From Paenibacillus borealis (GTDB taxonomy: Bacteria > Bacillota > Bacilli > Paenibacillales > Paenibacillaceae): 64,000 nt of DNA. The stretch is taken from assembly GCF_000758665.1 (NCBI RefSeq), contig NZ_CP009285.1:1798001-1862000 (forward strand). Direction: 5' to 3'. The position numbers and the translations under genes are program-made. This document shows positions 38,229 through 64,000 of this stretch, piece by piece. The notes under the pieces are model-generated. The model searched no databases. It was given only the letters and a program-made list of their open reading frames with translations, and was not told where the DNA came from. Within the stretch, counting starts at the first letter, position 1; every line of letters starts with the position of its first letter.

Positions 38229-38373
38229 TGTGATCCTATCCACTCATAAGCGGGCGCTGGATTGTACTGGCATACAGAGCAGGGGGAAGTACAGGAGGGG
38301 GAAATAATTATTGATTTTATAACATTATATGGTAAAAAGACTTGACAGGCATATGCTACAATTTATTTATAGG

Positions 38374-38385
38374 TGATAATTATCA
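38374..38385. promoter_or_regulatory. palindrome TGATAATTATCA upstream of the UvrA-like gene
   Basis: Perfect twelve-base palindrome in an AT-rich stretch downstream of TTGACA (38342-38347). It resembles the arms of Fur-family (Fur/PerR/Zur) boxes but without their central base. Candidate operator only. Confidence 0.4.
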
Positions 38386-38450
38386 AATGGCCTGGGAGCA
38401 GCAGATGAACTGAAATGGCCGGGTTTCCGGTCAATACTGGAGGACTACAA

Positions 38451-48198: not shown

Positions 48199-48900
48199 TT
48201 GCCTGGAATCATAAGCACGATTGCGCTGCTGATCAAAGAACTGACGCTGCTGGTATCTTACGTAAGGAACAATGCTTTTCCCCAGCCTCTATCGGAGCAG
48301 GATGAGAGCAAATACTTAGGGATGATGGCCGAGGGGGACGCTAAAGCACGAAATTTGCTAATTGAGCATAATCTGCGGCTCGTTGCCCATATAGTCAAAA
48401 AATTCGACAACACCGGCGAAGACATGGAGGACCTGATCTCCATCGGCACCATTGGGCTGATCAAGGCCATCGAGAGCTACCGCCCGAACAAGGGCACGAA
48501 GCTGGCTACTTTTGCGGCCCGCTGTATTGAAAACGAAATCCTGATGCATCTCCGGTCGCTGAAAAAAACCCGCAAAGACGTGTCTCTGCACGACCCGATT
48601 GGGACAGACAAGGAAGGGAACGAGATCACGCTGATTGATATCCTCGGTTCTGAGGCGGATGATGTGATTAAAGAGGTGGATCTCAAAATCGAGAAGAGCA
48701 AGATATATCGGAACCTGGATATATTAGATGAGCGGGAGAAGGAAGTCGTCGTCGGCCGCTTCGGGCTGGATACTGGCGGGGAAGAGCGGACGCAGCGGGA
48801 GATTGCGAAGGATCTGGGGATCTCGCGGAGTTATGTGTCGCGGATTGAGAAGAGGGCACTCATGAAGCTGTATCATGAGTTTTATAAGGCGAAGCGGTAG
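48199..48900 (+). CDS. sigK: sporulation sigma factor SigK, complete and uninterrupted
   Basis: 233 residues from a TTG start (GGAGGTG eight bases upstream). The N-terminus ([26 protein letters not shown]) resembles the pro-sequence removed by SpoIVFB in B. subtilis. Region 2 ([49 protein letters not shown]) and region 4 ([26 protein letters not shown]) are intact. It directs late mother-cell transcription (coat, cortex). Unlike B. subtilis it is not split by a skin element. Its last 506 bp are duplicated at 54013-54518 and in decayed form near 61618, bounding two accessory blocks. Confidence 0.93.
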
Positions 48901-48905
48901 GGGGA

Positions 48906-48936
48906 GTGAGTCTGTCTTTTGACAGGCTCTTTTTGT
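48906..48936 (+). terminator. terminator of sigK
   Basis: AGTCTGTC-TTTT-GACAGGCT stem (one G-U) followed by CTTTTTG. Confidence 0.7.
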
Positions 48937-49679
48937 TGTCGAAATTTGGACAAGTAGTTCGATAGGATTATGTGAAAAGTAGGATTTCTGTGTAAAACAT
49001 TTGAAATTTAATGTTATAATTTGGATAATCATAATACTATTATTACATAATCTGGATGGAAAAGGTGGCTCGTAATTTTGGAAGTACAGTGAATAAAATG
49101 ATTAAAGAAACTGCAAAAGCGCAACGTGCTGCTTAAATTCCGAGGAATGCTGCTATTCGTGAGTAGGAGAGAAATTTAAGACTGAGGCGGATGGACTTGA
49201 AGTTATTATTAAGATCAACTGGATAGAACTTCAAAACCTGCCTGCCACCCGGATCTCATGATTATAAATATGGTATATATGTTCTAGTGTTACTAGTTAA
49301 AGAGAAACCTAAAGAATACGGAATTACTTCAAAATTGCAACATGCCTTTTAAAGTTCTTAACTATGTCTTGATTCCCGATAAAATGAGCCTGGTTCTCTT
49401 TACGTCGTGTAAGGGAACTTTTTGGATTGAATATTTTAAGATGTATCTCTTGGAGTAGGGAAGAACATTCAGATGGCCATTAGTAAAACGACGATTACTG
49501 TCAACGAGGTGCTCACCTACAAAATGAATGGTTGCTAATGAACTGATTGAGCAGGAGTTACGCTGGATTGAATGCGGAGCTTTCTGTTTTACTTTTTTAG
49601 TTGCTATTGCTGTTCGTTTATATAACCCTTACGTGATAAAATAAATGGAATATAAATCAATTAATAAGGTAGGAGAAAA
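48937..49679. other. AT-rich left flank of the Argonaute island with decayed gene fragments
   Basis: About 740 bp without a full gene. Very short frames look like gene remnants: GTG 49065-49136 (23 codons, MARNFGSTVNKMIKE..., like the start of some restriction/nuclease genes), ATG 49473-49538 (21 codons) and ATG 49528-49644 (38 codons, listed separately). Base composition is clearly more AT-rich than on the left of 48900. No recombinase, tRNA or terminal repeat was recognised. Confidence 0.45.
49528..49644 (+). CDS. possible small membrane peptide before the 618-residue gene
   Basis: 38 codons: a short charged N-terminus (VANELIEQELRW) and one hydrophobic segment (CFTFLVAIAVRLY). Ends 35 bp before the next gene on the same strand. 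The nearest purine-rich site (GAGGTG, 49505) is 17 bases from the ATG, so translation is doubtful; it may be a gene remnant. Confidence 0.25.
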   Translation: MVANELIEQELRWIECGAFCFTFLVAIAVRLYNPYVIK

Positions 49680-51536
49680 ATGGATAACCAAACTGGACTA
49701 AATCTTAGATATGCAACATCTCCGGGGGCACTTCAATGGCTTGTATTTCATCTTTTAAATCGATTACCATTTCAATGGGAAACTGGTCCAGTACACAGCG
49801 GCGGGGTTGAGGGCGCTGATAAGACCCGGAAAGGTACTCCAGACATTTGGGGAATATTGAAGGGAAATCAGACAGCTTACGTTCAAATAAGCACAGATGT
49901 TTCTTTGGGTAAACTCGAAAAAGATGTGAAAAAGTGTATTGATAAGCTTGTAGGACTTAATGCAAATAAAAGTGCAATTATTATGGCTTTTATGACTTAT
50001 GACCCGCAACATGAGGAAGTATTTAGGTGTATCACTCTCTGCAATGAAATTGGAGCCACCTTTAAAATGTACAATAATACATTGCTTTGCAAGCTTCTTG
50101 ACGCCCCTGAGAATCAAGATTTGAGGAAAAAACACTTATCTATACCGATGGATGCTGAAAAAGCTATCAGTAGTTTTGAACGTATTCATTCTTCTTTTAG
50201 GAATCTCGACTTTGGAGCAGCAACCGAACAGTTAACTGACATGATTCAAATGTTTGACGTTAACAGCAATTTGGAAGTTATTCCAGATTTAAAAAATCCA
50301 GGTAACTTTACGATTACTCCAAGAAAAACCGAAGAAAATCCAACAGGAGTTATAAGAACAAAAATTCATTTTGTTGTTACTGATGAGATTCGAAAATTCG
50401 CTTCATTTGGTGATTTTTTAAAGCACTTATATTATAAGCAAATAACAGCAGAACTAATTGTACAGGAAGTTGAACAGTATTCAGGTGAGCAATTAATCAA
50501 AAGAACTAAAACAAATAATGAGTTTGAAACAGAACAAATCGAAACTGTCGAGTTCTTTAGTGAACAACCTGTAGAAATCATAGTTGAAAAAATGGATAAA
50601 GAAGGGGCAAAGTTACCAGATCATATTGTAATCTATCCACCTTCAATGTCTGATCCTTTTCTAGTAAATCTAGAAATAGATGAAATATTTATAATGATGT
50701 TAAGCCTGCAAACCAAAGAAATTAATGAAAGTGAAAATCATATCGTGTTTACTGTATCAAATTCTCACCAAACAGAATCCCCTTATATATTTGAAATGGT
50801 CGTTTCCTTACCTAAAAAAGTCAATGTAGAAAACCGGCTCGTTCAAGCACAAGACGTTTCGTTTAATTTTTCTCAAAGAAAGGTTCCTACTGCTTATCAA
50901 CTTTATCAGTATTCAGATTTACTATATCTTTTAACAAAATCAAAAAAGCTAACATTGATTAACCTAAGCAATGGTAGTGAACTAATGTCTGGCAACACAG
51001 TAAAAATTGAAGCTACAGTAAAAGAATCTATGGCCCAAAGAGACTTTTGGAAAGATGTCTTATATGTAGAACGTAGATTAGGACATCAGTTTGAGATTCC
51101 CGAAATAATAGAGACATCCGATATTGATAACATGTACGAACTTATTCGAAATGTCAGAACTGGTATATCGGTTATCAAGAATGTCCAATTAAATTTAGAC
51201 TTTAGAAAAACTGAAATGAACGTTGAAGCACATCAATTGATTCGTGACAGTATGAAAAATAGGTACTCTGTTAGAATGCAAGAAAGCGAAGATTATGTAA
51301 TTACGACTCTCGGAAAAGAGTTTAATTTTGGTAAACGATTACTTGTTATTCCTGAATTAAAAGCAATAAATGACAAGCTTGATATTAACGGCGAAACTGT
51401 CACAGTTAACTGTATAGCAAATGTGCTGCTTTTAATAATTCCTGAGTATTATGGTACAGATGACTTGTTATCAATCCTTGAAAAAGAAGGCTATAAGGGC
51501 CCGCTTATATTAAAAGTGAATATTGATCAGGCTTAA
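49680..51536 (+). CDS. uncharacterised 618-residue protein with PD-(D/E)xK-like N-terminus, Argonaute neighbour
   Basis: 618 residues, not recognised as a named family. Residues 12-90 have the layout of a restriction-type nuclease fold: helix (SPGALQWLVFHLLNRL), E44 in GGVEGADKTR, then GTPDIWGI with D55 and strand TAYVQIST. The position that is E-x-K in active enzymes reads Q69-I-S71, so the site may be altered or inactive. The rest is a long mixed alpha/beta region without signal or membrane segments, ending in a small domain (ITTLGKEFNFGKRLLVIPELK). It is convergent with the Argonaute gene, 205 bp apart, in the same AT-rich island, and codon use is alike, so the two were probably acquired together. 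RBS GTAGGAG. Role with Argonaute (nuclease, effector or guide generation) is inference. Confidence 0.6.
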   Translation: MDNQTGLNLRYATSPGALQWLVFHLLNRLPFQWETGPVHSGGVEGADKTRKGTPDIWGILKGNQTAYVQISTDVSLGKLEKDVKKCIDKLVGLNANKSAIIMAFMTYDPQHEEVFRCITLCNEIGATFKMYNNTLLCKLLDAPENQDLRKKHLSIPMDAEKAISSFERIHSSFRNLDFGAATEQLTDMIQMFDVNSNLEVIPDLKNPGNFTITPRKTEENPTGVIRTKIHFVVTDEIRKFASFGDFLKHLYYKQITAELIVQEVEQYSGEQLIKRTKTNNEFETEQIETVEFFSEQPVEIIVEKMDKEGAKLPDHIVIYPPSMSDPFLVNLEIDEIFIMMLSLQTKEINESENHIVFTVSNSHQTESPYIFEMVVSLPKKVNVENRLVQAQDVSFNFSQRKVPTAYQLYQYSDLLYLLTKSKKLTLINLSNGSELMSGNTVKIEATVKESMAQRDFWKDVLYVERRLGHQFEIPEIIETSDIDNMYELIRNVRTGISVIKNVQLNLDFRKTEMNVEAHQLIRDSMKNRYSVRMQESEDYVITTLGKEFNFGKRLLVIPELKAINDKLDINGETVTVNCIANVLLLIIPEYYGTDDLLSILEKEGYKGPLILKVNIDQA

Positions 51537-51708
51537 TACCTGGGTTGGTCTGATTGACAAGCAATATGTATCCGATATATTTTTGATTGACTTGTATTAG
51601 CAACTTAAAAATCAACAGCACAAGGTGAAATATGCAGGCCTTCTCTTAATGGCACAACAGGTCTAGTCAAGTCAATTATGAGTTGCGTCCGAGTAATGGT
51701 AAGAACAG

Positions 51709-51738
51709 AATAAACCTCCCATATGCGGGAGGTTTATT
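51709..51738. terminator. bidirectional terminator between the 618-residue gene and Argonaute
   Basis: Perfect twelve-base stem AATAAACCTCCC / GGGAGGTTTATT with a six-base loop, between convergent genes. Confidence 0.88.
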
Positions 51739-51740
51739 TA

Positions 51741-53858
51741 TTATACAAAATGTAGGGCTTCGCCAGAATCGATCGGGAGCCATTGCCGGTTGAAGAATGT
51801 AGAGCTTAAATCAGCATAATACGTAGTAATAGGTAGGCGACATTTTAATAATGAACCAATGTGCATGAACGAAAGATGATAAATATCTTGAATTATTGCT
51901 TCAATCGGTAGTGATCCCTTTTTCTTGATAATTTTAATCGGTTGTGCTGTGCCGACACGTGGATGAGGATTTGTGGCGATAAGATATGCCGACTCATCTT
52001 TTAGATAACACAATCCTGGCTTGGTCTCCCAACCTTGCTTACCAACGGTTAGAGCCATGCGACGATTCGTTTTCTTGATGATTTCAACCATGTCATATTG
52101 TACATCCAAACTATTCATTACTTCGTCTAGACTAAGTAAATCTTCTCTACAAAAACCATCCCGATGAAAAGTAACATGCTTTGGTCTTTCATTGTAATGT
52201 TGCTGATATTGGTCTATAGCTGAGTATACAATTTGACACATAGTTTCATGACGGATTTTTTCACCGGCCTCATTAGAGGTGTTTGCCTTGCTAGACAATA
52301 CTCTGCCGTCTTTTCCTACGACCTGTACAATTCCTGTAGAGTGTCTACCAGCTTCATGAGATACATCCAACCCAATAAAACAATCAGATGACAGAGGAGA
52401 ATTTAAGATCCACGGTTGAATGCCAGATTTAGAATAGAGTCCTAATAATAGATTGCCTAGAATGTAGTCATTAGCTTTTTGAAGAGTTTCTATAGTTATG
52501 AACTGAGTTGGTACTGAGGAATTTCCTCCGAATTCCTTCTTTACCAAGTCATACCACATTCCTGAAATTTTCTCCGGAATTATCACGAGCGTCAACTCTT
52601 GAAATAAATTTTTTGTAAGTTCTTTCAGTAGGATGGCAAGTTGGTGTGGATTTGTGAAATCTATCGGTCTGTTCCGATATGCTCCTGATTTTTTTAAGAT
52701 TGATAATGGTACACCCCATTTATGGGATAGCGCATTTAATTTATCATTAAAGTCATTTATGACATCGAGTTTTGTATCTATCAGTTCTGGGTATACAAGC
52801 AAATTAATTGATAAAGGTTTTGAGGCTACAACACCGCCCTTATCAAGTCCATATTTAAGCTGTGTTTGAGTAACATTTTTTCCGAATTGAAGATTAGGAT
52901 TTGACAACTCCAATATTTCATACCCAGCTTGCTGGACTAGGAGCTTTTGTTTATTAAATTTAATTTTATCAGTGCGTGCTAATATTTTTTGTATTTCATC
53001 CAGCAATGTCTTAATTTTTTGATTTGCGTTTTGTTTAAAAATTTCTGATGTTTGACGTACTACATTAGTAGGAAGCGACTCAAAAGTAAGTTCTTTTTGT
53101 AGCATAGCAGGTGCATAAGCAATACGAGATCCATTAAACGCTTTTAGATAGACAACAGGCATACTCTGTTCAAGTTTATCAACTTTCCAAGCTTGCTTTC
53201 GTTCTTTAGTAAAATAATTAACAACAGATTGATTAAGTTCTGGAATTGAATCATTGATTGTGGAATTGGAGATTTCCACAAACTCATAATGAAGATTGTT
53301 ATATATATCAATTACTCGATCGCCTTTAAAAATAGCATTTGATTTCATGAGATCATATACCGATTCATTTGTACGATAACTATGATTTAAATCAAAGCCA
53401 ACGGAAATTTTGCCCGCATAATCTACAGTAACATCACATTGTATAACCCTGTGTATTGAAATATTTTCTACGACTTTTTCAGCTTTTAACCACGTGAATT
53501 TTCGACTTCCAGCAGCAATTTCTTTTTTTGGCTGAACGCTTTCTATAGTTCTTAAAAGTAATCGTTCCAAGATAGCTCTTTCTGCTAAGATGGTGGGATT
53601 AATTGAGCGATATTCATGCTGAGTGAATGTGTATTCACCCCAATTTTCAATAGGTTGCCAACTTACAATATATTGATCATAAAAATCGATAATGAGCGAT
53701 CTGTTTAATTTTCTAAGGTCAAAACAAGCATTTCCGTTTTCTTTATGCTGTTCAAATACATTACGCACTGGTAGCGTATATAAATGAATATGTAGAACAT
53801 TTGTGTTCGTGTCTGATTCCCATTCTGTAAGTACGTAGTGTGTTAGTGGTGTATTCAT
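51741..53858 (-). CDS. ago: long prokaryotic Argonaute (pAgo), predicted catalytically active
   Basis: 705 residues, the length of long-A pAgos with N, PAZ-like, MID and PIWI regions. MID domain: Y436 and K440 (WYDLVK), Q452 (VPTQFIT) and K461 fit the YKQK pocket that holds the guide 5'-phosphate. PIWI domain: D498 ([11 protein letters not shown]), glutamate finger E533 (EAGEKI), D567 (HRDGF) and D683 (YYADLSS) give a complete DEDD tetrad. Active long pAgos, including some from Paenibacillus and Brevibacillus, use short DNA guides to cut DNA and defend against plasmids and phages. The gene is AT-rich, flanked by sigK copies and convergent with the 618-residue protein. Ribosome site is weak. 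No short-guide processing enzyme is adjacent unless the partner provides it. Confidence 0.92.
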
Positions 53859-54012
53859 AATCTGTTCTTTTCACTCTCCCTATTGGCCTATACCGATATA
53901 TCTATATGGCATATTTTAACTATACAATATATCCCATGCATCATCTACAAGCATCTTGAAATAAGACTTCTAAGAAAACCAGATGATTTTACATCGTATC
54001 GTGTCCACAACA
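53859..54012. other. upstream region of the Argonaute gene at the right island edge
   Basis: AT-rich. On the minus strand TTGTAT-17-TAGATA is a possible Argonaute promoter. The plus-strand frame running into the sigK copy is open back to 53883 but has no ribosome site. Confidence 0.35.
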
Positions 54013-54518
54013 TCAAAAAATTCGACAACACCGGCGAAGACATGGAGGACCTGATCTCCATCGGCACGATTGGGCTGATCAAGGCCATCGAGAGTTACCG
54101 CCGGAATAAAGGCACGAAGCTCGCGACCTTTGCTGCACGCTGTATCGAGAATGAGATCCTGATGCACCTCCGTTCGCTGAAAAAGACCCGTAAAGACGTG
54201 TCCCTGCACGATCCGATCGGGACAGACAAGGAAGGCAACGAGATCACGCTGATTGATATCCTCGGCTCTGAGGCGGATGATGTAATTAAGGAAGTTGATC
54301 TCAAAATCGAGAAGAGCAAGATATATCGGAACCTGGATATATTGGATGAACGGGAGAAGGAAGTCGTGGTTGGCCGCTTCGGGCTGGATACAGGCGGGGA
54401 AGAGCGGACGCAGCGGGAGATAGCGAAGGATCTGGGGATCTCGCGGAGTTACGTGTCGCGGATAGAGAAGAGGGCGCTCATGAAGCTGTATCATGAGTTT
54501 TATAAGGCGAAGCGGTGA
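54013..54518 (+). pseudogene. sigK: second copy of the sigK 3' part (5'-truncated sigK)
   Basis: Colinear without gaps with 48395-48900 (offset 5618). Homology begins at TCAAAAAATTCGAC, in region 2.2, so the pro-sequence and region 2.1 are missing. I count 38 base differences in 506; all but one are synonymous or in the stop codon (only Pro to Arg in YRPNKG/YRRNKG). The first 55 bases are identical. The copy therefore derives from a functional sigK allele and has not decayed. The frame is open upstream to 53883, giving a 211-codon chimera that might be translated, but no ribosome site is seen. It marks the right edge of the Argonaute island. Confidence 0.88.
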
Positions 54519-54551
54519 ACTTGAAATTACAAAGTAGTATCTGCTTACTAT

Positions 54552-54590
54552 GCAACTTGTCTACGGACGAGTTGCTTTTATTATTTTATA
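54552..54590 (+). terminator. hairpin after the second sigK copy
   Basis: GCAACTTGTC-TACG-GACGAGTTGC followed by TTTTATTATTTT. A near copy lies at 55861-55892. Confidence 0.75.
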
Positions 54591-54634
54591 AAACACAAAA
54601 GCTAATTAAATATAACTAAATTTGAGTATCAAGC

Positions 54635-54682
54635 AAAAAAAACCACTTATGCTCGGAAATCCCAAGCTTGCTTAAGTGGTTA
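54635..54682 (-). terminator. terminator of the nitronate monooxygenase gene
   Basis: On the minus strand a stem ACCACTTA / TAAGTGGT closed around 24 bases and followed by eight T. Confidence 0.65.
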
Positions 54683-54709
54683 ATCGTGCTTTTGAATTTT
54701 AGAACAACC

Positions 54710-55675
54710 TTAAATTGTCGGGTTCAATGCCCCTTGATACTCATTCATTAGATTGTCGATAATCTGTTGTACGGACAAAATCTCTTTAATCTCATGAACT
54801 CTGGCCCCGGCAAAAACCAATCCGTTCTTAACATCTCCTCTAAGGGAAGTGAGCAGGGATTCCATTGTACAGAAGCGATGTGAACAAACCTTTAGACAAT
54901 CATAGCATTTGACTATCTTTAATTTGGCATCATTACTGATGCGGTCCGTAAATTCATTTCGAATCGCTCTTCCTTCTAGACCCACAGTAGACTTGATTAG
55001 GACAGTATCTCCTTGCTGAGCATCTACATACTTTTGCTTGAAGGCTAAGGGAGCATCACACTCATGGCTTGCCACAAAACGGGTACCCATTTGAACACCA
55101 GATGCGCCAATCCGAAGGGCTTTTGCGATATCATCCCCTGTCAAAATTCCACCCGCAGCAATAACCGGAATCGAAACGGCCTCTAAGACTTCAGGAAGGA
55201 TATCAAACATGGGTCTGTCTGTACCTAAATGGCCCCCGGCTTCGAACCCTTCCACAACGACTGCGGAGGCACCAAGTCTTTCGGAAATTCGGGCTAATTT
55301 GGCGGATGAAACAATAGTTACTACAGGAGTACCATATTCTTTACCCCAAGCATAAATATCTCTAGAAATTCCGGCTCCGGAAATAATAAAGTCAACCTTT
55401 TCTTCTAAAGCAACCTTCATTTTCTCGGCAAAGTCCTTCACTGCGAATAGTACATTCACACCGATATAGCCAATCCCTTTAGAGAGTTCTCTTGTTTTGC
55501 GAATATGCATTCTCAGCTCTTCAGCAGTGATCCCTGTACCAGAGATGGTGCCGATCCCACCCGCCTTGGCTACAGCAGCGGCGAGTCCACTTAAGGATAT
55601 GCCTACACCCATTCCACCTTGAATAACAGGAACTCTCGATTTAATATGTCCGAATTGGATTGTTGGAAGTTTCAA
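54710..55675 (-). CDS. nitronate monooxygenase / 2-nitropropane dioxygenase family
   Basis: 321 residues from a TTG start with GAGGTG six bases upstream. FMN-dependent TIM barrel: PVIQGGMGVGISLSGLAAAVAKAGGIGTIS at the N-terminus, SGAGISRD near 96, VVVEGFEAGGHLG near 138 (the conserved catalytic His in GGHxG), IPVIAAGGILTGDDIAKAL and GASGVQMGTRFVASHEC. These enzymes oxidise nitronates such as propionate 3-nitronate. The C-terminal KCYDCLKVCSHRFC cluster is Cys-rich. A related group is FabK enoyl-ACP reductase; the AGGHLG motif and lack of fatty-acid context favour nitronate monooxygenase. Single gene in the accessory block. Confidence 0.85.
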   Translation of the reverse strand: MKLPTIQFGHIKSRVPVIQGGMGVGISLSGLAAAVAKAGGIGTISGTGITAEELRMHIRKTRELSKGIGYIGVNVLFAVKDFAEKMKVALEEKVDFIISGAGISRDIYAWGKEYGTPVVTIVSSAKLARISERLGASAVVVEGFEAGGHLGTDRPMFDILPEVLEAVSIPVIAAGGILTGDDIAKALRIGASGVQMGTRFVASHECDAPLAFKQKYVDAQQGDTVLIKSTVGLEGRAIRNEFTDRISNDAKLKIVKCYDCLKVCSHRFCTMESLLTSLRGDVKNGLVFAGARVHEIKEILSVQQIIDNLMNEYQGALNPTI

Positions 55676-55860
55676 TTACACACCTCTTTCGCAAGTTGAA
55701 GGAATAAGATATATCGTAACACAGTTAAGTCTTTCCTGGATGTGACTGTAAACATGCTCAAACTATGTTAAATATCATGTCTTTCAACTGTTTTCTTTAA
55801 GGTGTTGATATCAAGTGAAAATTCAAGAAACGAAGTATCCGTTAACAATACAGCAGTAAA

Positions 55861-55892
55861 GCGACTTGTCTGTGGATGAGTTGCTTTTTATT
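55861..55892 (+). terminator. hairpin GCGACTTGTC / GATGAGTTGC with T-run
   Basis: Similar to the hairpin at 54552 (about four differences in 24 bases). It stands in a gene-free stretch (55676-56118), in plus orientation with no plus-strand gene before it, so it may be a relic of an earlier arrangement. Otherwise nothing recognised in this stretch. Confidence 0.5.
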
Positions 55893-56049
55893 TTTCTTGA
55901 CGGAGGTCCAAATGATTAGTTTTCAGCCAACTCGTGGGATTAGTTCGAGAGTTCTCTCTTTTTTCGAGGGAAAGGATGAGTGGGAATTGCATATACTGTA
56001 AAGTGTTAAACTTGGATAAACCAGATAGATGAAAGTTCTTGGAATTAGC

Positions 56050-56090
56050 AAAAGAAACCCGAAGTCTCATAAAAGACTTGGGTTTCTCGT
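56050..56090 (-). terminator. terminator of the old-yellow-enzyme gene
   Basis: Stem AGAAACCCGAAGTCT (56053-56067) / AGACTTGGGTTTCT (56074-56087), with a T-run on the minus strand. A second hairpin (AGTAGTC / GACTACT) lies at 56097-56118. Confidence 0.75.
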
Positions 56091-56118
56091 CAACCTGAGT
56101 AGTCTGTAGGACTACTTT

Positions 56119-57240
56119 TTATTTACTAATAGGAAACCAACCTGGCATGGCTTGAATTACATTTGAAAGTTTTTCCGGAATATTAAGCTGGTCGAGTTTC
56201 GAAACGTTCAACTCAGAATCCACCTCGGCTTCACGTCCATTTGCGACCTTCTCAACCCAATTAGGATCTATAATTAACGCATGCCCAATGGCGACTAGCG
56301 GCAATCCTAATTCCACAGCTTTAAGAGCATCATCTGGTGTTACTATGGATCCAGCAGCCATCACAGGTACCTTACCGTGTGCTCTCTCAAGAATTAATTC
56401 AAGCCGTGTTTTCCCATCTTGACTATCTACTGGCTTTGAAGACACATTATCTAGTGAAGCATGAATATAATCTAAATCCTGTTCAACTAGGAAATCAATT
56501 AATTCATACGTATCTTTCATACGTAATCCGTCCACTTTGTGAGATTCTTCAGGGGAAAGCCGGTATCCAATAATGAATGGTTTTGTAGCATGCTTTTCAA
56601 TGACGCTTTTGACTTCTTCAATAATCGCCAACGGAAAACGCAAGCGATTTTCAAGTGATCCTCCCCATTGGTCCATTCGTTGATTTGTTGCTGGCGACCA
56701 AAAATTCTGAATTAAAAATCCATGAGCTCCATGGATTTCGATGCCATCAAATCCGGCTTCGATCGCTCGTCTTGTTGTGTCTCCAAAAGCACGTACAATC
56801 GACAAGATCTCCTCATGAGATAGTTCTCTTGTTTCTGGAGTTGAACCTAAATTAGTAACTTCGGGTTGCAATGCACTCGCACTAACTGCATCCAATCCAG
56901 GCAGGACTTTATTTCCAGCATGGAAAATCTGTAGTATCGCAGGAGAGCCTCCACTTTTTGCTGCCTCAGCTAATCTTCGTAAACTTGGAGTGAATTCATC
57001 ATTGTACCCAGCGAATTCATTCGTAAAGCCCTGCCCATTAGGTGTAACATGAGTACACCCTGTAATGACGAGTCCTACTCCATTCACTCTTTGTTTGTAA
57101 TACTTTACTTCGTCATCCGAAATGGTAAGGTCGTCATTACTTGACCAGGTTGTCATGGGTGCCATAACCACTCTATTCTTCATTGTTATTCCGCTTCTGA
57201 AGGTGAAGGATTCAAATAACCGGCTATATTTCTGATTCAT
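56119..57240 (-). CDS. old yellow enzyme family NADH:flavin oxidoreductase
   Basis: 373 residues, single FMN-binding TIM barrel. Landmarks: KNRVVMAPMTTWSS (22-35), LQIFHAGNKV, the substrate-binding pair in IEIHGAHGFLIQNFWSP (H/H), NQRMDQWGGSLENRLRFPLAII, and MAAGSIVTPDDALKAVELGLPLVAIGHALI. No iron-sulfur domain, so not a dienoyl-CoA reductase of the long type. Reduces activated C=C bonds in electrophiles such as enones or nitroesters with NAD(P)H. Divergent from a MerR-type regulator, the usual arrangement for an electrophile-induced detoxification gene. RBS GAGGT nine bases upstream. Confidence 0.88.
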   Translation of the reverse strand: MNQKYSRLFESFTFRSGITMKNRVVMAPMTTWSSNDDLTISDDEVKYYKQRVNGVGLVITGCTHVTPNGQGFTNEFAGYNDEFTPSLRRLAEAAKSGGSPAILQIFHAGNKVLPGLDAVSASALQPEVTNLGSTPETRELSHEEILSIVRAFGDTTRRAIEAGFDGIEIHGAHGFLIQNFWSPATNQRMDQWGGSLENRLRFPLAIIEEVKSVIEKHATKPFIIGYRLSPEESHKVDGLRMKDTYELIDFLVEQDLDYIHASLDNVSSKPVDSQDGKTRLELILERAHGKVPVMAAGSIVTPDDALKAVELGLPLVAIGHALIIDPNWVEKVANGREAEVDSELNVSKLDQLNIPEKLSNVIQAMPGWFPISK

Positions 57241-57386
57241 TTCATTAACCTCGCTATCACAGTTTATTTTCTACTTCAGTATATTTGGTTCCTGTTACGG
57301 TAAGTAAAGGATTTTTTTATTTGATTGCATATTTGTGTGATTATATATAGGAATGTTGTTTTATTATTCTCTTTTATGATATATAT

Positions 57387-57409
57387 TTAGTTACAGTAAC
57401 TATAACTAA
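57387..57409. promoter_or_regulatory. inverted repeat TTAGTTA-N9-TAACTAA, candidate MerR operator
   Basis: Seven-base arms (57387-57393 and 57403-57409) spaced as for MerR-family dimers, in the divergent region between the old-yellow-enzyme gene and the MerR gene. It is close to the MerR gene start and so may mainly serve autoregulation. Confidence 0.5.
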
Positions 57410-57423
57410 AGGTGGATAAGTAG

Positions 57424-57846
57424 ATGACGTATTCAATGACATATGTGGTGGAGAATTATAATGTATCTGCAAAGACACTTCGATTTTATGAAGAGCAAGG
57501 GATATTACCAGATATTTCTCGTGACGAAAAAGGACGTAGAGTGTATAGCGAACAACAAATAGATTGGATTTCTTTTATTCGTTGCCTCAAAGAGACAGGA
57601 ATGCCTCTTATGAAAATAAAAGAATACAAGGAACTCTATGAATTAGGCAATTCTACCTTTTTACAAAGAGAAGAAATGTTAATTCAGCACAAATTGGATG
57701 TGCAGAAGAAGATTGATGAAAGCTTCAGACACTTAGAGGAAATAAATTATAAAATAGCTATGTACGACCTTCAGAAAGAAGAAGTCATAAAAAATCCCAA
57801 TCATATTTTTAGATGTCACGGTTTGGAGGTTAAGGTAGCGAATTAA
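57424..57846 (+). CDS. MerR-family transcriptional regulator
   Basis: 140 residues. N-terminal winged helix-turn-helix (YVVENYNVSAKTLRFYEEQGILPDISRDEKGRRVYSEQQIDWISFIRCLKETGMPL), a dimerising coiled coil (about 80-125) and a short C-terminus without a Cys-rich metal site. MerR regulators of this size respond to aldehydes and other electrophiles. Expected to control the divergent old-yellow-enzyme gene. Confidence 0.88.
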   Translation: MTYSMTYVVENYNVSAKTLRFYEEQGILPDISRDEKGRRVYSEQQIDWISFIRCLKETGMPLMKIKEYKELYELGNSTFLQREEMLIQHKLDVQKKIDESFRHLEEINYKIAMYDLQKEEVIKNPNHIFRCHGLEVKVAN

Positions 57847-57875
57847 TGTACTTAAGCTCTATCAAGGGTTCAATA

Positions 57876-57928
57876 AAACAGAGGTAGTCTAGGACTTTCA
57901 TTCGTCTAATGGCTGCCTCTGTTTTTAT
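57876..57928 (+). terminator. terminator of the MerR gene
   Basis: AAACAGAGG-TAG / CTG-CCTCTGTTT stem around a 27-base loop, followed by a T-rich run. Confidence 0.7.
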
Positions 57929-57934
57929 TTGGTG

Positions 57935-58042
57935 GTGAGTATCGTATTGTTTTCTTTATTTACTATAGGGATCATTATCCAAGTGAAGAGTTACAGGCGA
58001 CATAAACTTGTAAAAGATGAGAAGGTTGGAGGGAATTCTTAA
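57935..58042 (+). CDS. possible 35-residue membrane peptide
   Basis: GTG-started frame: one hydrophobic helix (IVLFSLFTIGIIIQV) followed by a basic tail (KSYRRHKLVKDEK). No clear ribosome site. It lies in a gene-free stretch (57847-58230) and may be a relic. The frame after it (ATG 58041, 10 codons) has GGAGGG upstream but stops at once. Confidence 0.25.
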   Translation: MSIVLFSLFTIGIIIQVKSYRRHKLVKDEKVGGNS

Positions 58043-58199
58043 TGCAGCGTCTGGCCTCTAAGGGATGCTTATAGAGGAATAGCACAGTGGAGGCTACAAA
58101 GGTTCTGCTTGCGAATTTATTTATTCCCGTCAGGCTATGCATAATACGACGGTCCGCAAAATTGAAAGTGGCTCGATAAATTCTGTTACGGCAAGAATT

Positions 58200-58228
58200 A
58201 GGGCCATCCTTTTCGGGATGGCCCTGTC
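58200..58228. terminator. bidirectional terminator of the SLH amidase gene
   Basis: AGGGCCATCC-TTTTC-GGGATGGCCCT stem followed by GTCTTTT; directly after the amidase stop on the minus strand. Confidence 0.8.
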
Positions 58229-58230
58229 TT

Positions 58231-61200
58231 TTAGTTCACAGTTTCCAGTAATCTGGAGACCATTGTTGCAAACTCTGCTCTGGTAATATCTTTTCCAGGC
58301 TTAAAGGTACTATCCTCGTAGCCAGTAATAATATTATTGGATGCGAGTGCATCAATGGAATCATAATACCATGCATTTCTATTAACATCTTTGAAGGATG
58401 TGTTTCCAGTACCTGTCAGCTTAAAGGCTCTAGTAATCAGTGCCGCTAATTCACTGCGGCTTATCTTGTCGTTCGGACGGAAGGTTCCATCGCTATATCC
58501 GTTCATCAGGCCTGCTCCGGCTGCTGCGCCGATATACGTATTAGCCCAATGCGTTGGAGATACATCTGTAAAGCTGCTAGCCTGTCCTTCAAGCCCCATG
58601 TACGTTGCAATGACCTTGATGGCTTCGGCACGGGTCAACCCTGAATCCGGACGGAAGGTTCCATCGGAATAACCCGTTAGTAATCCCTTGGCTATAAGCA
58701 CATCAATGCTTGCTTTTGCCCAGTGATTAATAGTATCTGCGAAACTGGCAACTTCCGGCGTAGGTGTTGGTGCTGCTGGTTCTGCAGGTGCTGGTGTTGC
58801 TGTAGGAGCCGGTGTTGGTGTGGGCGTTGCTGTTACCGGGGGAGTTACGGTACCTCCTCCAGGACTTGGATTGCTTGGTTCATTATCTGTTGGATCAGGA
58901 TTAGTAGGATTAGAGACGTATTGAAGTGCTGGAGCATAGGCTGTAAGCAGTCTGGCTTGACTCTGTTGCTCAAGAGCATAGCCCATACCTAGAACTTTGG
59001 CATCGTCCCATGCTCTGCCAACAAGCTGCATGGAGATAGAATATCCGCTGTCGTTCGTTCCTACAGGAACAACTACCGTAGGGAGGCCGACGTTAGACGT
59101 TAATACGCCCGTGTTTCGGTCAGAGCTTAATTGAGAGGCTGCTGAGTCATTGTTATATACGTCACTGATAAAACCTGCATAAACAATAGCATCCACGCCA
59201 TTTTCGTCCATCCAGCCTTTAATAACTTCCTTATAGTCAGTTCTATATTTGATGTAATCTTGTACAGCCTGTTCAGTCATGCGGGTAGGCTCTGTATATC
59301 CTCTCTGATTATAGATAAGCACCTTATCTGAAGCGAGTACACTTGCTCCATCAATGTAAGGGAAGTTCTTATGAAGCTCAATATAGCGCGCCCAGCCTTC
59401 GGTAGATCCATTAATGCCTGCTGGACGGGTAGGTGCTGACGGTACTTTTGACATTTCAACCATTGTCGCCCCCGCTGCCTGAAGCTCGGAGAACTTATTC
59501 ATTACGGCTTGTCCGGTATCATCATCGGCATAACTGGAGACAAAGGAAGCAGGGATATATCCGATTTTCTTTCCTTTCAATGCATTAGTATCCAGAGATT
59601 CCTTCCAGTCAGCCGGACGCTTATGATCTGCATCGGCAGTCACTGTGAAGATATCCTGCGGATCCGTCCCCGTTGTAGCATTCAACATGATGGCCAGGTC
59701 CGTTACTGTCTTAGCAATGGGACCTGCATAATCCTGTCCCCAAGTGAGCGGCAGTACACCTGTAGTACTTGCCATGCCGTCTGTACCACGGAAGCTTTTT
59801 AAGCTGGCGCCTGTAGTAGGTGCATAGAGAGAGACCCCTGTCTGTGAACCCATGGCTGCTGCTGCAAAATCAGCTGCAACAGATACTGCCGAGCCGCCGC
59901 TTGAGCCAAAGGATGTTTTCGATGGATACAGAGCATTCCAGGTTTGCTGCCAGCCGCTCTCGCTAAAGCTTCCGCTGTTGGCGAACTCGGAAGTATTTAC
60001 TTTACCAATAATTACAGCTCCAGCTTCCCGCAGCTTATTCACCTGGAATGCATCAGAATCTGGCTGCCAGCCTTCAAGCGCTTTGCTGCCGCCTGTAGTA
60101 GGCATATCCTTGGTATCATAGATATCTTTTATCGCAATGGGAATACCGAGCAAATCCCCTTTTGCACCTTGTGCGCGGGCATTGTCAGCAGCTTGTGCCT
60201 GGGTAAGCGCAGTTTCAGAGACATGCAGGAAGGCATGGAAGCCAAGCTGGCCTTCATCGTATACCTTGATTCTATCTAAATAAGCCTGAGTAATTTGTAC
60301 GGAAGTAGTTTTACCGCTAATCATATCCTGCTGCATTTGTGCAATGGATTTATTCGTAACATCATAGGGGGAAGAAGTGATGAATGCTTTAGCTGCTGGA
60401 GCATCCGGAATCACCAGGGTATCTCCAGTATCCAGTCCCTCTATAGCAGAGACATCCCAGTTACTGATTGAACGGATTTGTGCGTTGGTTAATCCGGTTA
60501 CATCCAGCTGGCTATTAAGCCCGTTTAGCATGGTCACCAGATTCTTCAGGCCTTCTTCACCCGCTTCTCCAACTTGTACATAATGTACCAGGGATTTCGA
60601 CTCTCCCGGCTCAATGTGTAATGTATTAATGAACCCGTAGAAATTCGCATCATTTCCGGACTTAGCTAATGGTGTGGTGAATGGATTCTGCTGCTGATTG
60701 CCCAGGCTGGTTAATCCATTCTCAAATGGATGCGGAGACCCGACTGCAACGCCCAGCGGCTTATTGTCTTTAGCACTGCTGTCTACAACAATCCATGAAT
60801 CATCCGTAGTCACCTCCAGATCATTGGAGTATGTTGCCTTGACTACTGAAGCATTTGCTGCTGTACCATACCCCAGAGAGCCGCCGAAAGAGACATCAAC
60901 CTTTACGTTCATATCATTTTTATTAGTAAAGGTATCAAAGAATCTCGTACGATTATTTATAGTATCGACATACACATCACGAGTAACAGTTACATTTCCC
61001 AGATTTACAGACTGAGTCGAAGTGAATCTATTCACACCATCGTATTTCAAGTCAAACCCGCGCATCATTTGACCATTCATCAGTGAAGCTGTAGGCGACG
61101 ACACTTTAACGAAGATATTACCGAAGCCTTGTACTTGTGTAGTACCAACGGTACGTAAACTTCCTGTGTCTAAGCTAGGCGCAAAGACATCATGAATCTC

Positions 61201-61404
61201 CCATACTGTGCCGCTTGCTGAAGTAACCCGGGTTAAAGCATCAGCGGTCTGAAACGGAATGACACTCGAAGCGATAACAGATAACGCAATGGACGTAGCT
61301 ATAACTTGCTTTTTACTCCAATTATTTTTTGCTGGTGAATATTCGGAGCGGGGGGAACCAGAATGATTTCTTTTAGTTTTACTTAGACGTTTTAGCTTAT
61401 TCAT
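58231..61404 (-). CDS. secreted amidase-signature protein with three SLH domains
   Basis: 1057 residues. Basic N-terminal stretch of about 30 residues, then a hydrophobic signal segment (VIATSIALSVIASSVIPF, 34-51). Residues 57-300 form a beta-rich domain of unknown family. The amidase-signature domain (about 340-850) has catalytic K426 (IPIAIKDIYD), the cis-Ser in FGSSGGSA (501-505) and nucleophile S525 in GSQTGVSLYAP, where the usual TGGS is TGVS. A Pro/Thr linker (about 865-905) leads to three SLH repeats (FADTINHWAK, FTDVSPTHWAN, FKDVNRNAWYY). So it is a wall-anchored amide hydrolase; peptide, wall or xenobiotic amides are possible substrates. RBS GAGGAG. Confidence 0.85.
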   Translation of the reverse strand: MNKLKRLSKTKRNHSGSPRSEYSPAKNNWSKKQVIATSIALSVIASSVIPFQTADALTRVTSASGTVWEIHDVFAPSLDTGSLRTVGTTQVQGFGNIFVKVSSPTASLMNGQMMRGFDLKYDGVNRFTSTQSVNLGNVTVTRDVYVDTINNRTRFFDTFTNKNDMNVKVDVSFGGSLGYGTAANASVVKATYSNDLEVTTDDSWIVVDSSAKDNKPLGVAVGSPHPFENGLTSLGNQQQNPFTTPLAKSGNDANFYGFINTLHIEPGESKSLVHYVQVGEAGEEGLKNLVTMLNGLNSQLDVTGLTNAQIRSISNWDVSAIEGLDTGDTLVIPDAPAAKAFITSSPYDVTNKSIAQMQQDMISGKTTSVQITQAYLDRIKVYDEGQLGFHAFLHVSETALTQAQAADNARAQGAKGDLLGIPIAIKDIYDTKDMPTTGGSKALEGWQPDSDAFQVNKLREAGAVIIGKVNTSEFANSGSFSESGWQQTWNALYPSKTSFGSSGGSAVSVAADFAAAAMGSQTGVSLYAPTTGASLKSFRGTDGMASTTGVLPLTWGQDYAGPIAKTVTDLAIMLNATTGTDPQDIFTVTADADHKRPADWKESLDTNALKGKKIGYIPASFVSSYADDDTGQAVMNKFSELQAAGATMVEMSKVPSAPTRPAGINGSTEGWARYIELHKNFPYIDGASVLASDKVLIYNQRGYTEPTRMTEQAVQDYIKYRTDYKEVIKGWMDENGVDAIVYAGFISDVYNNDSAASQLSSDRNTGVLTSNVGLPTVVVPVGTNDSGYSISMQLVGRAWDDAKVLGMGYALEQQSQARLLTAYAPALQYVSNPTNPDPTDNEPSNPSPGGGTVTPPVTATPTPTPAPTATPAPAEPAAPTPTPEVASFADTINHWAKASIDVLIAKGLLTGYSDGTFRPDSGLTRAEAIKVIATYMGLEGQASSFTDVSPTHWANTYIGAAAGAGLMNGYSDGTFRPNDKISRSELAALITRAFKLTGTGNTSFKDVNRNAWYYDSIDALASNNIITGYEDSTFKPGKDITRAEFATMVSRLLETVN

Positions 61405-61617
61405 TTCAGTAATCTCCTCTTCCTGTATGTATATTTATTAAATTATGTTAGGAAATATAACATCGTTATTTCTTTCAGTCAATAAATATTAAAAATTTAA
61501 TATATTTTTGAGGTTTTGATATAAAGTAAATACTATATTCATTAAAATTTGTAATATAAATGGTAACTATTAGATATATTAACTAACATATTATGATATG
61601 TTTAGTTCTATATAGCG
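61405..61617. other. AT-rich upstream region of the SLH amidase
   Basis: 213 bp, very AT-rich (runs such as AAAATTTAATATATTTTTGAGG), containing the amidase promoter on the minus strand and ending at the third sigK fragment. No clear operator. Confidence 0.4.
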
Positions 61618-61957
61618 ATGCACCTTCGCTCGCTGAAAAACACGGAAAGACGTGTCGCTCCATGATCCGATGGGGACAGACAAGGAAGGGAACGAGATTA
61701 CGCTGATCGATGTCCTCGGATCTGAAGCCGACGATGTGATTAAAGAGGTGGATCTTAAGATCGAGAAGAGTAAGATCTACTGCAACCTCGATATTCTCGA
61801 TGAAACGGAGAAGGAGGTCGTGGTCGGGCGGTTTGTTTTGGTTTGGATACAGAAGGTGAATAGCGGACGCAACGGGAGATTGCGGAGGTTCTGGGGATCT
61901 CGCGGAGTTATGTGCTGCGGATTGAGAAGAGGGTGCTAATGAAGCTTTATGCGGCAA
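61618..61957 (+). pseudogene. sigK: third, decayed fragment of the sigK 3' part
   Basis: Starts at CGATGCACCTTCGCTCGC, matching sigK from about base 48540 on. It has a 2-base deletion near 61643 (frameshift), an insertion near 61836, substitutions such as R to C (KIYCNLD) and loss of the TATCATGAGTTTTAT segment near the end. [38 protein letters not shown] is still readable. It is shorter at the 5' side and far more damaged than the copy at 54013, so it is older. It marks the right edge of the second accessory block. Confidence 0.85.
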
Positions 61958-61973
61958 ACCGATATTCATAATC

Positions 61974-62010
61974 AAAAAGGAAGACCGCACAAAGCGCAGT
62001 CCTCCTGTTC
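61974..62010 (-). terminator. terminator of the MFS gene
   Basis: On the minus strand AGGAGGACTGC / GTGCGGTCTTCCT (one bulge) followed by five T. Confidence 0.65.
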
Positions 62011-62048
62011 ATTTCGTTTGCAGCTTGTAATAAAGTCCTTCCTGATAT

Positions 62049-63521
62049 CTACTCCATTACAATCACAGGGGTTTTGTTTGCTTCACCAGGCGTAAGGCCT
62101 GCATCCTTAGGAGCGGGACGCTTTAAGGTGAGTGCCAGCAATAACCCGGCCACTGCAATAATGGCGAGTAGTTGGTAGGTGTTGTGAAATGCATGCGTCA
62201 TTGCATTAGGCACTGGTGCCTCACCATTGCTCGCATAATGATCGGTACGGCTGACAAGGAACGTTGTCAATCCTGCGATAGCTAAGGATGAAACTACTTG
62301 CTGGGCGGCACTTGTCAGTGAAGTGACTCTTCCGACCAGCTCCTTAGGCGCCGCTTGGATCAAGTGGGTATTCAATGCGATGAAAGACATGCCGGAACCG
62401 AGTCCGAGCAGTATGCGTGGAAGCAGGAATGCCCACGAGCTGTCGCTTGGATCGATCATGGAGAACATATAGGCGCCAGCCGTTATGAGAATCAAGCCGC
62501 CGACCACCAGGGGACGTGCGCCGACCCGGTCGAACAAACGTCCGCTGAACGGCATCATGATACCGGAAGCGATGGCCTGGGGCAATGACCAGAAGCCAGC
62601 TTCAAAAGCACTCATTCCCATAAGCCGCTGCATGAAATACGGAACAGCGAAAATCATGCCGAACAAAGCGAGCTGTAAAACCCATTGTACCAGAATCCCT
62701 AGGGTAAATTGCATAGAACGAAAAACCCTCAGCTCCAGCAATGGCTCCTTCTTGTTCCGGAGTTCAACGATGACAAACAGAATCAAAGCGACTGCACCTA
62801 CGGTAAGACCAGTGATCGTTTTCACCGTAGTCCACCCTTCTCCGCCTTCGCTTAACCCATATGAAAGGCCGCCGAATGCTAACGGAGCGAGCATAAATCC
62901 TAAGGAATCCAGCGGAGCAAAAGCCTTCTTCGGCAGATTCGGCAGTAATAGGATACTTAAGACAACCCCAACGATGCCGACCGGAATATTGATTAGAAAC
63001 AGCCACCGCCAGCTGACGTAGTCGACCAAATACCCGGATACGATTGGACCAAGTGCAGGTGCAAGCAGAACTGGCACTCCCATGATACCCATGATTCTGC
63101 CTACCGATTCGGCGGGACTGATCCGGTAGATCATCGCGAAGGCGATCGGAGTAACCATACCGCCACCCAGGCCTTGCAAGATGCGGAAGAATATCAACAT
63201 TTCGGCCGAGCCCGCGAATGAGCATAAGATTGAACTGCCGACGAACAAGATGATGGAAATAATGAAAATTTGCTTGGCACCGAACCGGTCGGACATCCAC
63301 CCAGCTAACGGAATAACGGAAGCCTGGGCTAGCGCATAACCAGTAATGGTCCATTGAATAAGGGTCAACGAACTTTGAAAGTCTTCAGAAATAACCGGAA
63401 TGGCGACGTTAACCGCCGTGCTGTCCAGAATAACCATGAACAACCCTACGATAATCGCGATCAACGGAGCAATGAGTGAACGGAGTGATGCGGACTCACT
63501 TACTGTGGAATCTGCGGGCAT
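62049..63521 (-). CDS. DHA2-family (EmrB/QacA) multidrug exporter
   Basis: 490 residues with about 14 membrane segments. MFS DHA2 motifs: LDSTAVNVAIPVI in helix 1 (motif D1, LDxTVVNVALP), GWMSDRFGAKQIF after helix 2 (motif A), and GPIVSGYLVDYVSWRWLFLINIPVG (motif C, antiporter). Proton-driven efflux of lipophilic or cationic compounds. Divergent from a TetR-family regulator, the common arrangement. RBS AGGAGAGAG. GC-rich relative to the preceding accessory block. Confidence 0.9.
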   Translation of the reverse strand: MPADSTVSESASLRSLIAPLIAIIVGLFMVILDSTAVNVAIPVISEDFQSSLTLIQWTITGYALAQASVIPLAGWMSDRFGAKQIFIISIILFVGSSILCSFAGSAEMLIFFRILQGLGGGMVTPIAFAMIYRISPAESVGRIMGIMGVPVLLAPALGPIVSGYLVDYVSWRWLFLINIPVGIVGVVLSILLLPNLPKKAFAPLDSLGFMLAPLAFGGLSYGLSEGGEGWTTVKTITGLTVGAVALILFVIVELRNKKEPLLELRVFRSMQFTLGILVQWVLQLALFGMIFAVPYFMQRLMGMSAFEAGFWSLPQAIASGIMMPFSGRLFDRVGARPLVVGGLILITAGAYMFSMIDPSDSSWAFLLPRILLGLGSGMSFIALNTHLIQAAPKELVGRVTSLTSAAQQVVSSLAIAGLTTFLVSRTDHYASNGEAPVPNAMTHAFHNTYQLLAIIAVAGLLLALTLKRPAPKDAGLTPGEANKTPVIVME

Positions 63522-63569
63522 ATAACTCTCTCCTAACTATTCGTAATTTGGCTACCATTAAAATAGCAT

Positions 63570-63599
63570 AGTTTATAAACGAAGTAAACGATTTATACT
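63570..63599. promoter_or_regulatory. imperfect dyad in the MFS-TetR intergenic region, candidate TetR operator
   Basis: AGTTTATAAACG (63570-63581) and CGATTTATACT (63589-63599) are nearly inverted; the core GTTTATAAAC is a perfect palindrome. Sits between the two divergent genes. Confidence 0.5.
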
Positions 63600-63682
63600 A
63601 AAAAAGTTCAAATAGTAAAGGGTGTTTAAAATATTGACGAATTGCTTTATAATGATATTGGCAACACAGGAGGTGTTGGAAC

Positions 63683-64000
63683 ATGTCGGAGGCAGATTGC
63701 GATCCGTTGTCCTCGAAACGAGAAAAGCTTCTCGTACGTTTAATCCCCTATATCCAAAAACAGGGCATCAGCCAGATGAAGATGGAAGATGCGGCCAAAT
63801 GTATGGATATCAGCAAGGCAACTATGTATAAATATTTTGACTCCAAAGATGAGATTGTGGGACGTCTGCTTGATCAATATGTCCGATTTCTTTCCAATCT
63901 GATCCTGCTGGAAGCTCCCTCAAAGCTGTCGCCTGAGAAGATATCGCGGCCGTCCGAAGAAGAGCTGAAGGTTTACAACGAATCTTTCGCCAAGGCATTT
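63683..64000 (+). CDS. TetR-family regulator (3' end outside window)
   Basis: 106 residues visible from the ATG at 63683, with AGGAGGTG ahead. N-terminal TetR helix-turn-helix: REKLLVRLIPYIQKQGISQMKMEDAAKCMDISKATMYKYFDSKDEIVGRLLDQY. The frame runs off the window. Likely represses the divergent exporter. Confidence 0.88.
   Translation, partial: MSEADCDPLSSKREKLLVRLIPYIQKQGISQMKMEDAAKCMDISKATMYKYFDSKDEIVGRLLDQYVRFLSNLILLEAPSKLSPEKISRPSEEELKVYNESFAKAF

Follow-up and report, generated by a model that had tools for sequence, protein, structure and literature searches.

The closest described relatives of the locus considered here are elements that lie inside the sporulation gene sigK. In the C. 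difficile skin element the gene for the large serine recombinase (LSR) CD1231 stands immediately upstream of the sigK 3' part and this enzyme alone suffices for integration, excision additionally needing CD1234, the recombination directionality factor (RDF); the skin sites of B. subtilis and C. difficile in sigK are given as different (PMC5025042). A prophage in sigK is recorded for C. tetani strains (PMC5553647). Here we describe sigK in a window of 64,000 nucleotides (nt; the whole stretch of DNA analysed, positions 1798001-1862000 of a Paenibacillus borealis genome that forms one contig of 8.16 Mb), where the gene is whole and is followed by accessory blocks bounded by copies of its own 3' part. 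We think it probable that a family of LSR elements uses codon 66/67 of sigK as its attachment site and has inserted there repeatedly, the gene staying whole. No description of sigK arrays in Paenibacillus was found in titles and abstract openings of the open-licence literature.

The sigK array and its junction

The intact gene (48199-48900, + strand; positions are those of the window unless marked as genome) is an open frame of 233 amino acids (aa; NCBIfam spore_sigmaK, E 6.9e-111) that forms the head of the array and would hold the integration site, attB, which we place at 48375-48420 on the + strand; the outer limits of this interval are a guess, the crossover lying at or near the A-run that begins at sigK nt 199 (48397), in codon 66/67. 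Downstream lies a first displaced 3' part (copy 2; 54015-54518, + strand), an open frame that aligns, as 54013-54516, to sigK nt 197-700 with 92.9% DNA identity on the + strand, and whose protein is 97.7% identical to SigK across aa 63-233. A second (copy 3; 61617-61950, + strand) is decayed, matching nt 345-675 at 82.4% with indels such that its reading requires two frames. A preliminary description of this stretch had proposed an intact sigK and 3' copies of the same orientation bracketing accessory blocks, which the alignments confirm; its count of two 3' copies is right for the window, whereas the genome has ten, and the array has about ten units, not two.

A search of the whole genome found one intact sigK and ten downstream 3' copies between genome 1852002 and 1957000, all on the + strand (the count of ten being our own grouping of aligned pieces). 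These ‘tails’ start at genome 1852002, 1859617, 1862519, 1863679, 1864751, 1867931, 1931290, 1932413, 1939394 and 1956870, two inside the window and eight past its end; the last (genome 1956870-1957000) would fall at ~159 kb in window coordinates, and the array spans 110 kb, in blocks of about 1 to 63 kb. Only the copy nearest sigK is an open frame, the other nine being truncated, frameshifted or internally deleted; in DNA alignments none of the ten extends upstream of sigK nt 186, and the aligned pieces are 2-31% divergent from sigK.

Four of the ten tails are preceded by an arm, P (ACATCRYATYGTGTCCACAACMTC), and these all begin at the same sigK position. The pattern was derived from the four junctions themselves, among them 53991-54014 (+ strand, 0 mismatches to the pattern), the P arm of what we read as the right attachment junction (attR) in front of copy 2; no P arm was recognised at copy 3. 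Searched as 24 bp with up to 3 mismatches, P occurs 4 times in the 8.16 Mb, every time at a sigK tail, and its reversed control does not occur. The change from P to sigK is located at the A-run starting at nt 199; uncut alignments begin at nt 186 or 197, as P has some resemblance to sigK of its own.

The junction recurs far beyond this genome. Across 100 genomes of the genus the P pattern gave 122 sites in 51 genomes, against 10 matches in 4 genomes for the reversed control. Joined to the sigK core from nt 199 it serves as a signature of such islands: among 394 genomes of the family 73 carry it, spread over 9 of 19 genera, and the reversed control matches in none of the 394. Most of the 122 sites (95) lie on the sigK contig, on the same strand and downstream by no more than 200 kb (the median distance being 20 kb and the longest 119 kb); a further 6 lie upstream of sigK on the other strand, and 1 is 1.3 Mb away. 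The 13 on contigs other than that of sigK and the 7 in genomes with no listed head were left unplaced relative to sigK. Thirty-five P sites, in 33 loci, were drawn from the 122 and read, the search beginning directly behind P, such that a ‘start at nt 199’ denotes homology extending up to P: 31 continue into a sigK tail, and 27 of these have homology directly behind P, at nt 199. The four without a tail are one in G011, a palindromic site in G034, one cut by the end of its locus and one in G057. Outside the genus, 10 of the loci matched in the family-wide search were read, and all 10 carry a piece of sigK starting at aa 50-68 at P, three of them with only 13-19 residues there. The crossover site in the target is fixed, as in LSR-type integration. 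Tail counts in relatives are lower bounds, among the matches listed, with at most 5 candidates scored per genome; in four fetched loci with a single match (G047, G054, G001 and G014) there is one sigK each, and relatives with three copies and no island, which the preliminary description had named as a contrary case, were not seen among them.

The cargo between the tails differs between genomes, as that description had anticipated. G040 is the nearest to the window in the upstream flank (0.955) among 33 other heads compared, and shares with it the flank through sigK (genome 1838001-1847137 and G040 29531-38621, 94.3%). Its distal flank is mostly shared from genome 1957407 (G040 93417) at about 92%; the description's choice of the sequence after 61957 as the flank of the empty site therefore fails, as the array runs on to genome 1957001 and the shared flank resumes about 97 kb beyond 61957; with the flank moved to genome 1957407 the proposed comparison with relatives succeeds. 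Between the shared flanks lie 110 kb in P. borealis versus 55 kb in G040, where the slot behind the head holds about 25 kb of other DNA before the first P-tail. The Argonaute block of the window and most of a 63-kb block beyond it are unmatched in the G040 region compared, and some other blocks are common to both genomes at 96-97%, in a different order.

Serine recombinase elements at sigK in relatives

Four relatives (G002, G006, G075 and G098) carry an LSR gene of 546-548 aa just upstream of a complete sigK that has its own promoter region. The protein has Resolvase, Recombinase and zinc-ribbon domains (Pfam); its best NCBIfam model is CcrB (E 6.1e-33), at 114 bits far under the 900-bit cut-off. 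Between LSR and sigK in all four sits a gene for a small CxxC protein, of which G087 retains a remnant before sigK without an LSR; the gene or its remnant was found in 5 of 43 sequences searched. Farther upstream of the LSR lie tyrosine recombinases, three in G006, three in G075 and two in the fetched stretch of G002, with three open reading frames (ORFs) matching tyrosine recombinases in G098. A 297-aa gene (L084 14396-15286) lies between the tyrosine recombinases and the LSR; neither Pfam nor NCBIfam gave a match for it, and G002 has a relative at 68%.

The 1.2 kb from the end of the LSR to the start of sigK is 96.6% identical between G075 and G098, whereas their resident sigK 5' stubs are 89.5% identical over 325 bp; the complete sigK therefore belongs to the element. 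Within G006, G075 and G098 the promoter and 5' part are duplicated over about 300 bp, at 75-88% identity.

Six relatives (G002, G006, G075, G098, G087 and G074) retain such a 5' stub, and in four it is joined to an inverse arm, P'. In G006, G075 and G098 the stub (about aa 1-69) is fused to P', and G002 has the same arrangement on a separate contig; G087 keeps aa 11-69 plus a decayed P', and G074 keeps aa 1-70 with one stop, plus another 5' piece. Reversed, the P' of G006 agrees in 22 of 22 bases with a common form of P, such as that of G036 and G040, the maximum in 2000 shuffles being 14, and those of G075, G098 and G002 are one or two bases off it. The six opposite-strand P sites upstream of sigK belong here (two in G006, one in G075, one in G098, two in G087). 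Stub-P' and P-tail have the anatomy of attL (B-P') and attR (P-B') derived from an inverted-repeat attP. The two hybrid sites occur together in relatives only; the P. borealis genome has the attR half and no attL half.

Other members of the LSR family are placed differently. In G074 an LSR of 582 aa stands at the right end of a block, its frame overlapping the sigK tail, with only the inner half of P kept (8 mismatches in 24 bases). In G011 a 568-aa LSR has P inside the gene end (C9:127265-127288, L088) at a place other than sigK, a possible alternative target. A near-palindromic P/P' site in G034 (C36:4715-4738), also away from sigK, may be another.

In two relatives, G072 and G034, an LSR element splits sigK and no intact copy was found. 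The 5' and 3' parts lie 11.1 kb and about 22.7 kb apart, respectively, and the LSR directly before the 3' part shares 50% and 47% identity with that of G006. Joining the flanks gives frames of 233 codons, identical to the window SigK at 206 of 233 and 205 of 233 residues; without joining, stops follow after 69 and 81 residues. The break is at the same codon as the P junction. A split near codon 117 was considered and dropped, that codon being the first Met of the 3' frame and the break lying at codon 66-69. The preliminary description had set the locus apart from skin, which splits sigK; this stands for the window, where the gene is a whole 233-aa frame and the genome encodes no LSR of this family at E<=1e-60, but not for these two relatives.

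Carriers outside chromosomes were sought at E<=1e-50 and rejected: among 72,556 plasmid records one matched the sigK-site LSR, at 32% identity, and among 50,697 phage records five did, at 28-29% (SPbeta-type).

Models for the growth of the array

We suggest the following route. The attP of the element would be an inverted repeat, P ... P', and integration would cut sigK such that the 5' stub is joined to P' (attL) and the 3' tail to P (attR). Autonomous forms, presumed from the relatives, would bring tyrosine recombinases, the LSR, the CxxC gene, a complete sigK with its promoter region and right-hand cargo, and because the element carries a complete sigK the host would keep a whole one. The product of attP x attB would read stub-P' ... 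complete sigK - cargo - P-tail; the incoming sigK would then be the new attB at which the next element lands, pushing older cargo and its tail downstream. Stub and LSR would usually be lost afterwards, most likely when the duplicated promoter and 5' parts undergo homologous recombination, and the end state would be intact sigK - cargo - P - tail - older cargo - tail, as in the window.

That an LSR of this family made the P/nt-199 junctions is suggested by its position, its domains and the sites themselves. The lineage of the window may have lost stub and LSR, and the spare sigK, to judge from its open frame, is presumably functional; the window sigK could have become whole either through that loss or through insertion of a tail-bearing circle. 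Serial integration with sigK kept whole, as first proposed, is the reading best supported, by the fixed junction, the differing cargo, and the attL/attR-like sites and LSR in relatives.

A number of observations weigh against this reading. Neither a circle nor an empty site has been observed directly. The P. borealis genome has no member of the sigK-site LSR family at E<=1e-60; its Recombinase and Resolvase domains are absent from the array and found only at 186 kb, where two adjacent LSR-type matches (genome 186416-187695; L017-L019), one a 200-aa open frame and one with an internal stop, are the genome's only LSR matches and, at 23-26% identity to the G006-type LSR, were rejected as the enzyme. 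Phage_integrase matches number 5 in this genome with none at 1846-1957 kb, the array, where a tyrosine recombinase was looked for and none found. Across the genus, at E<=1e-60, the LSR family is present in 9 of 100 genomes versus 51 of 100 with P, so that loss must be very frequent or else the bulk of the cargo is moved in trans. No P is recognisable at six of the ten P. borealis tails; G098 alone gives 7 of the 10 reversed-control matches to P; in G075 the P to the right of sigK and its zeta-toxin remnant runs into sequence other than a sigK tail; and site choice is not absolute, as the sites away from sigK in G011 and G034 illustrate. Finally, cargo and tail do not always travel together: the head cargo of G084 resembles those of G086 (98.7% over 7.0 kb) and G049 (97.5% over 5.4 kb) although identity over sigK nt 300-599 is no more than 86-94%, and in G087 and G059 about 8 kb of common cargo at 90-100% is accompanied by tails at 81-83%. 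Since near-identical cargo can stand beside unlike tails, tail exchange must join the model, exchange between head and tails being the simplest cause of the mismatch.

The strongest rival, which we regard as possible though distinctly the less probable, is a cassette route, in which a circle of P, a sigK 3' tail and cargo, without a recombinase of its own, is inserted by an LSR acting in trans that joins P-B' with B-B'; the product would be an intact sigK with the newcomer's tail and P-B' at the far end, much as for staphylococcal cassette chromosome (SCC) or integron cassettes. The scarcity of the LSR family relative to P, most arrays having no such LSR in their genome, suits this well. So does the mosaic structure of sigK, since the route predicts that similarity breaks at the core or shortly behind it: between window and G040 no base differs from nt -126 to 233, and 62 of 498 positions differ in nt 205-702. 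In a comparison of 34 heads taken from the 100 genomes, the 38 pairs with upstream flank identity >=0.75 average 0.957 over nt 1-196 versus 0.894 over nt 205-702, the 5' part being the more alike in 36 of 38, whereas the 523 pairs without enough upstream homology give 0.838 and 0.836 (5' higher in 298 of 523). A control pair with one sigK match each among the matches listed, G047 and G054, gives 0.857 versus 0.878, G054 being an imperfect control with a zeta-like gene in its fetched sigK locus. The difference in flank-sharing pairs indicates that the 3' part of sigK has its own history, but we no longer take the mosaic to prove that a tail arrives with its cargo, as near-identical cargo can adjoin different tails and gene conversion of the head by downstream tails would yield the same pattern. 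A donor for the window's sigK tail was sought by nearest neighbour among 69 copies and none was found, the best match, 0.918, being its own tail 1. The reaction of attR with attB is not known as a normal one for LSRs, which counts against the cassette route, and the stubs in six relatives, four with P', indicate whole elements. Whole elements and cassettes would insert at one site and with identical products, and the present data do not separate the two routes.

Homologous recombination alone, in which 500-bp sigK tails served as crossover repeats and transformation or conjugation shuffled the cargo after an original integration long ago, seems to us unlikely. Heads and tails are indeed repeats, with best matches ranging from 0.81 to 0.995; the head and first tail of G036 are 99.5% identical over nt 213-600, and cargo order differs between G040 and P. 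borealis. Crossovers within repeats create no P/nt-199 junction, however, and would leave unexplained both the occurrence of P with its core in 9 of 19 genera and the P' beside stubs. Programmed excision of the array or its first block during sporulation, as for skin, has very little to commend it here: direct sigK repeats do flank each block, and G072 and G034 have sigK split at this very codon by LSR elements and restored to a 233-codon frame on joining, but the window sigK is whole, such that excision is unneeded, and the LSR is absent. Tandem duplication or misassembly, either of which can produce gene repeats in one orientation and the second of which had been raised at the outset, can be set aside almost completely, given a single 8.16-Mb contig, pieces that are divergent and never reach upstream of nt 186, and the same junction in 51 of 100 genomes.

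We return to insertion of LSR elements at codon 66/67, and lean, somewhat narrowly, towards a broader proposal: that such elements have made sigK a growing cassette chromosome across one bacterial family, with split (G072, G034; the gene would have to be rejoined), spare-copy (G002, G006, G075, G098) and recombinase-free array states. On this proposal programmed excision becomes needless for the element once it carries a spare sigK, and copies exchange the 3' two thirds of sigK, the 5' part being inherited with its flank. If so, the array would be an ordered, readable record of integration in a key developmental gene, and would show a way for an element to reside in such a gene with no need of programmed excision; with the three states within one family, the origin of skin-like elements becomes testable.

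Cargo and relation to known systems

The first block (48901-53990), the newest by our model, is an AT-rich Argonaute island (GC 0.34-0.35 in both large ORFs). It encodes a prokaryotic Argonaute of 705 aa (51741-53858, - strand; Piwi E 5.4e-25, PADLOC pAgo E 9.8e-298) and, facing it, a 618-aa protein (49680-51536, + strand) for which Pfam, PADLOC and NCBIfam all gave no match at E<=0.01, possibly a new Argonaute partner; any function of the Argonaute is putative. The idea of the Argonaute as a shared cassette was rejected, as at E<=1e-40 it was found in 1 of 100 genomes of the genus, P. borealis itself.

The second block (54519-61616) has four genes by Pfam: a nitronate monooxygenase family member (54710-55675; NMO 4.4e-60), an NADH:flavin oxidoreductase family member (56119-57240; Oxidored_FMN 2.1e-78), a MerR regulator (57424-57846; MerR_1 9.6e-17) and an amidase with S-layer repeats (58231-61404; Amidase 3.8e-68, SLH 4.5e-44). 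The amidase stretch is 96.8% identical in G040 and there too adjoins a sigK tail. A second amidase-SLH gene lies at genome 1927905-1931084; each precedes a decayed tail (1859617 and 1931290), and both match one G040 gene (96.8% and 94.3%), as for a duplicated block end within the array. The third block starts within the window (61951-64000) with an MFS transporter (62049-63521; MFS_1 E 1e-77) and is 97.5% identical between sigK tails of G040.

Beyond the window the array holds a zeta-toxin-like gene, a GmrSD-type gene in two ORFs (Pfam GmrSD_N; PADLOC HEC-06/Orf5) and, between sigK tails at genome 1868358-1931289 (L010-L013), about 63 kb of polyketide/AMP-binding-type genes, of which two were tested by Pfam (polyketide synthase; AMP-binding/carrier protein) and the rest assigned from ORF reading; two large ORFs and a small carrier-type ORF in it look nearly repeated, with identical starts. 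What would remain in recombinase-free arrays, besides the sigK tails, is Argonaute, a zeta-like toxin, restriction-type genes and the 63-kb polyketide block, a string of defence and antibiotic-type genes accumulated beside a sigK that stays whole. In a search of 43 sequences, with 11 matches short of the C-terminus (that of G075 included) set aside, 14 zeta-like matches extend to the C-terminus, and 13 of them stop 50-61 nt ahead of P; in G075 a zeta remnant lies to the right of the complete sigK, 106 nt before P. We read zeta, from its placement, as the probable right end of an ancestral element, in which case many small units would be remnants of whole elements. Apart from the array, an adjacent direct repeat of ~118 bp, 84% identical, lies at 5732-5848 and 5858-5975.

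Set beside known systems, the array resembles integron arrays in that it seems to grow at one end and carries varied toxin-like and defence-type cargo; unlike them, it has no integron integrase (a tyrosine recombinase), its repeat is the sigK tail (attC-like sites were not searched for) and its blocks range from about 1 to 63 kb. SCC cassettes of staphylococci, which insert serially at the conserved gene rlmH by LSR-type recombinases (CcrAB/CcrC) with gene function kept and att sites repeated, are alike in their serial insertion at one conserved gene and in the resulting string of cassettes with repeated att sites. They differ in that about 500 nt of gene are duplicated here versus a few tens of bases, and in that the recombinase lies upstream of sigK in four relatives; the target here is sigK, and Ccr models match the LSR of the relatives far under cut-off, such that we do not class the array as SCC. 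Elements and prophages that restore the 3' end of their target gene, such as e14 in icd, likewise bring a replacement for the split gene end, but the LSR forms here bring a complete gene with its promoter region and leave a 5' stub, and the tail is more than two thirds of the gene.

Skin, too, is an LSR-type element inside sigK, and the layout in G072 and G034 is that of C. difficile skin. The differences are that sigK is whole in P. borealis, that insertions pile up, that elements of four relatives carry a complete sigK, and that the site is codon 66/67; the skin site of Bacillus subtilis is at codon 112. On this comparison of sequences the locus would be an LSR landing site akin to that of skin, at which the elements bring a sigK of their own.

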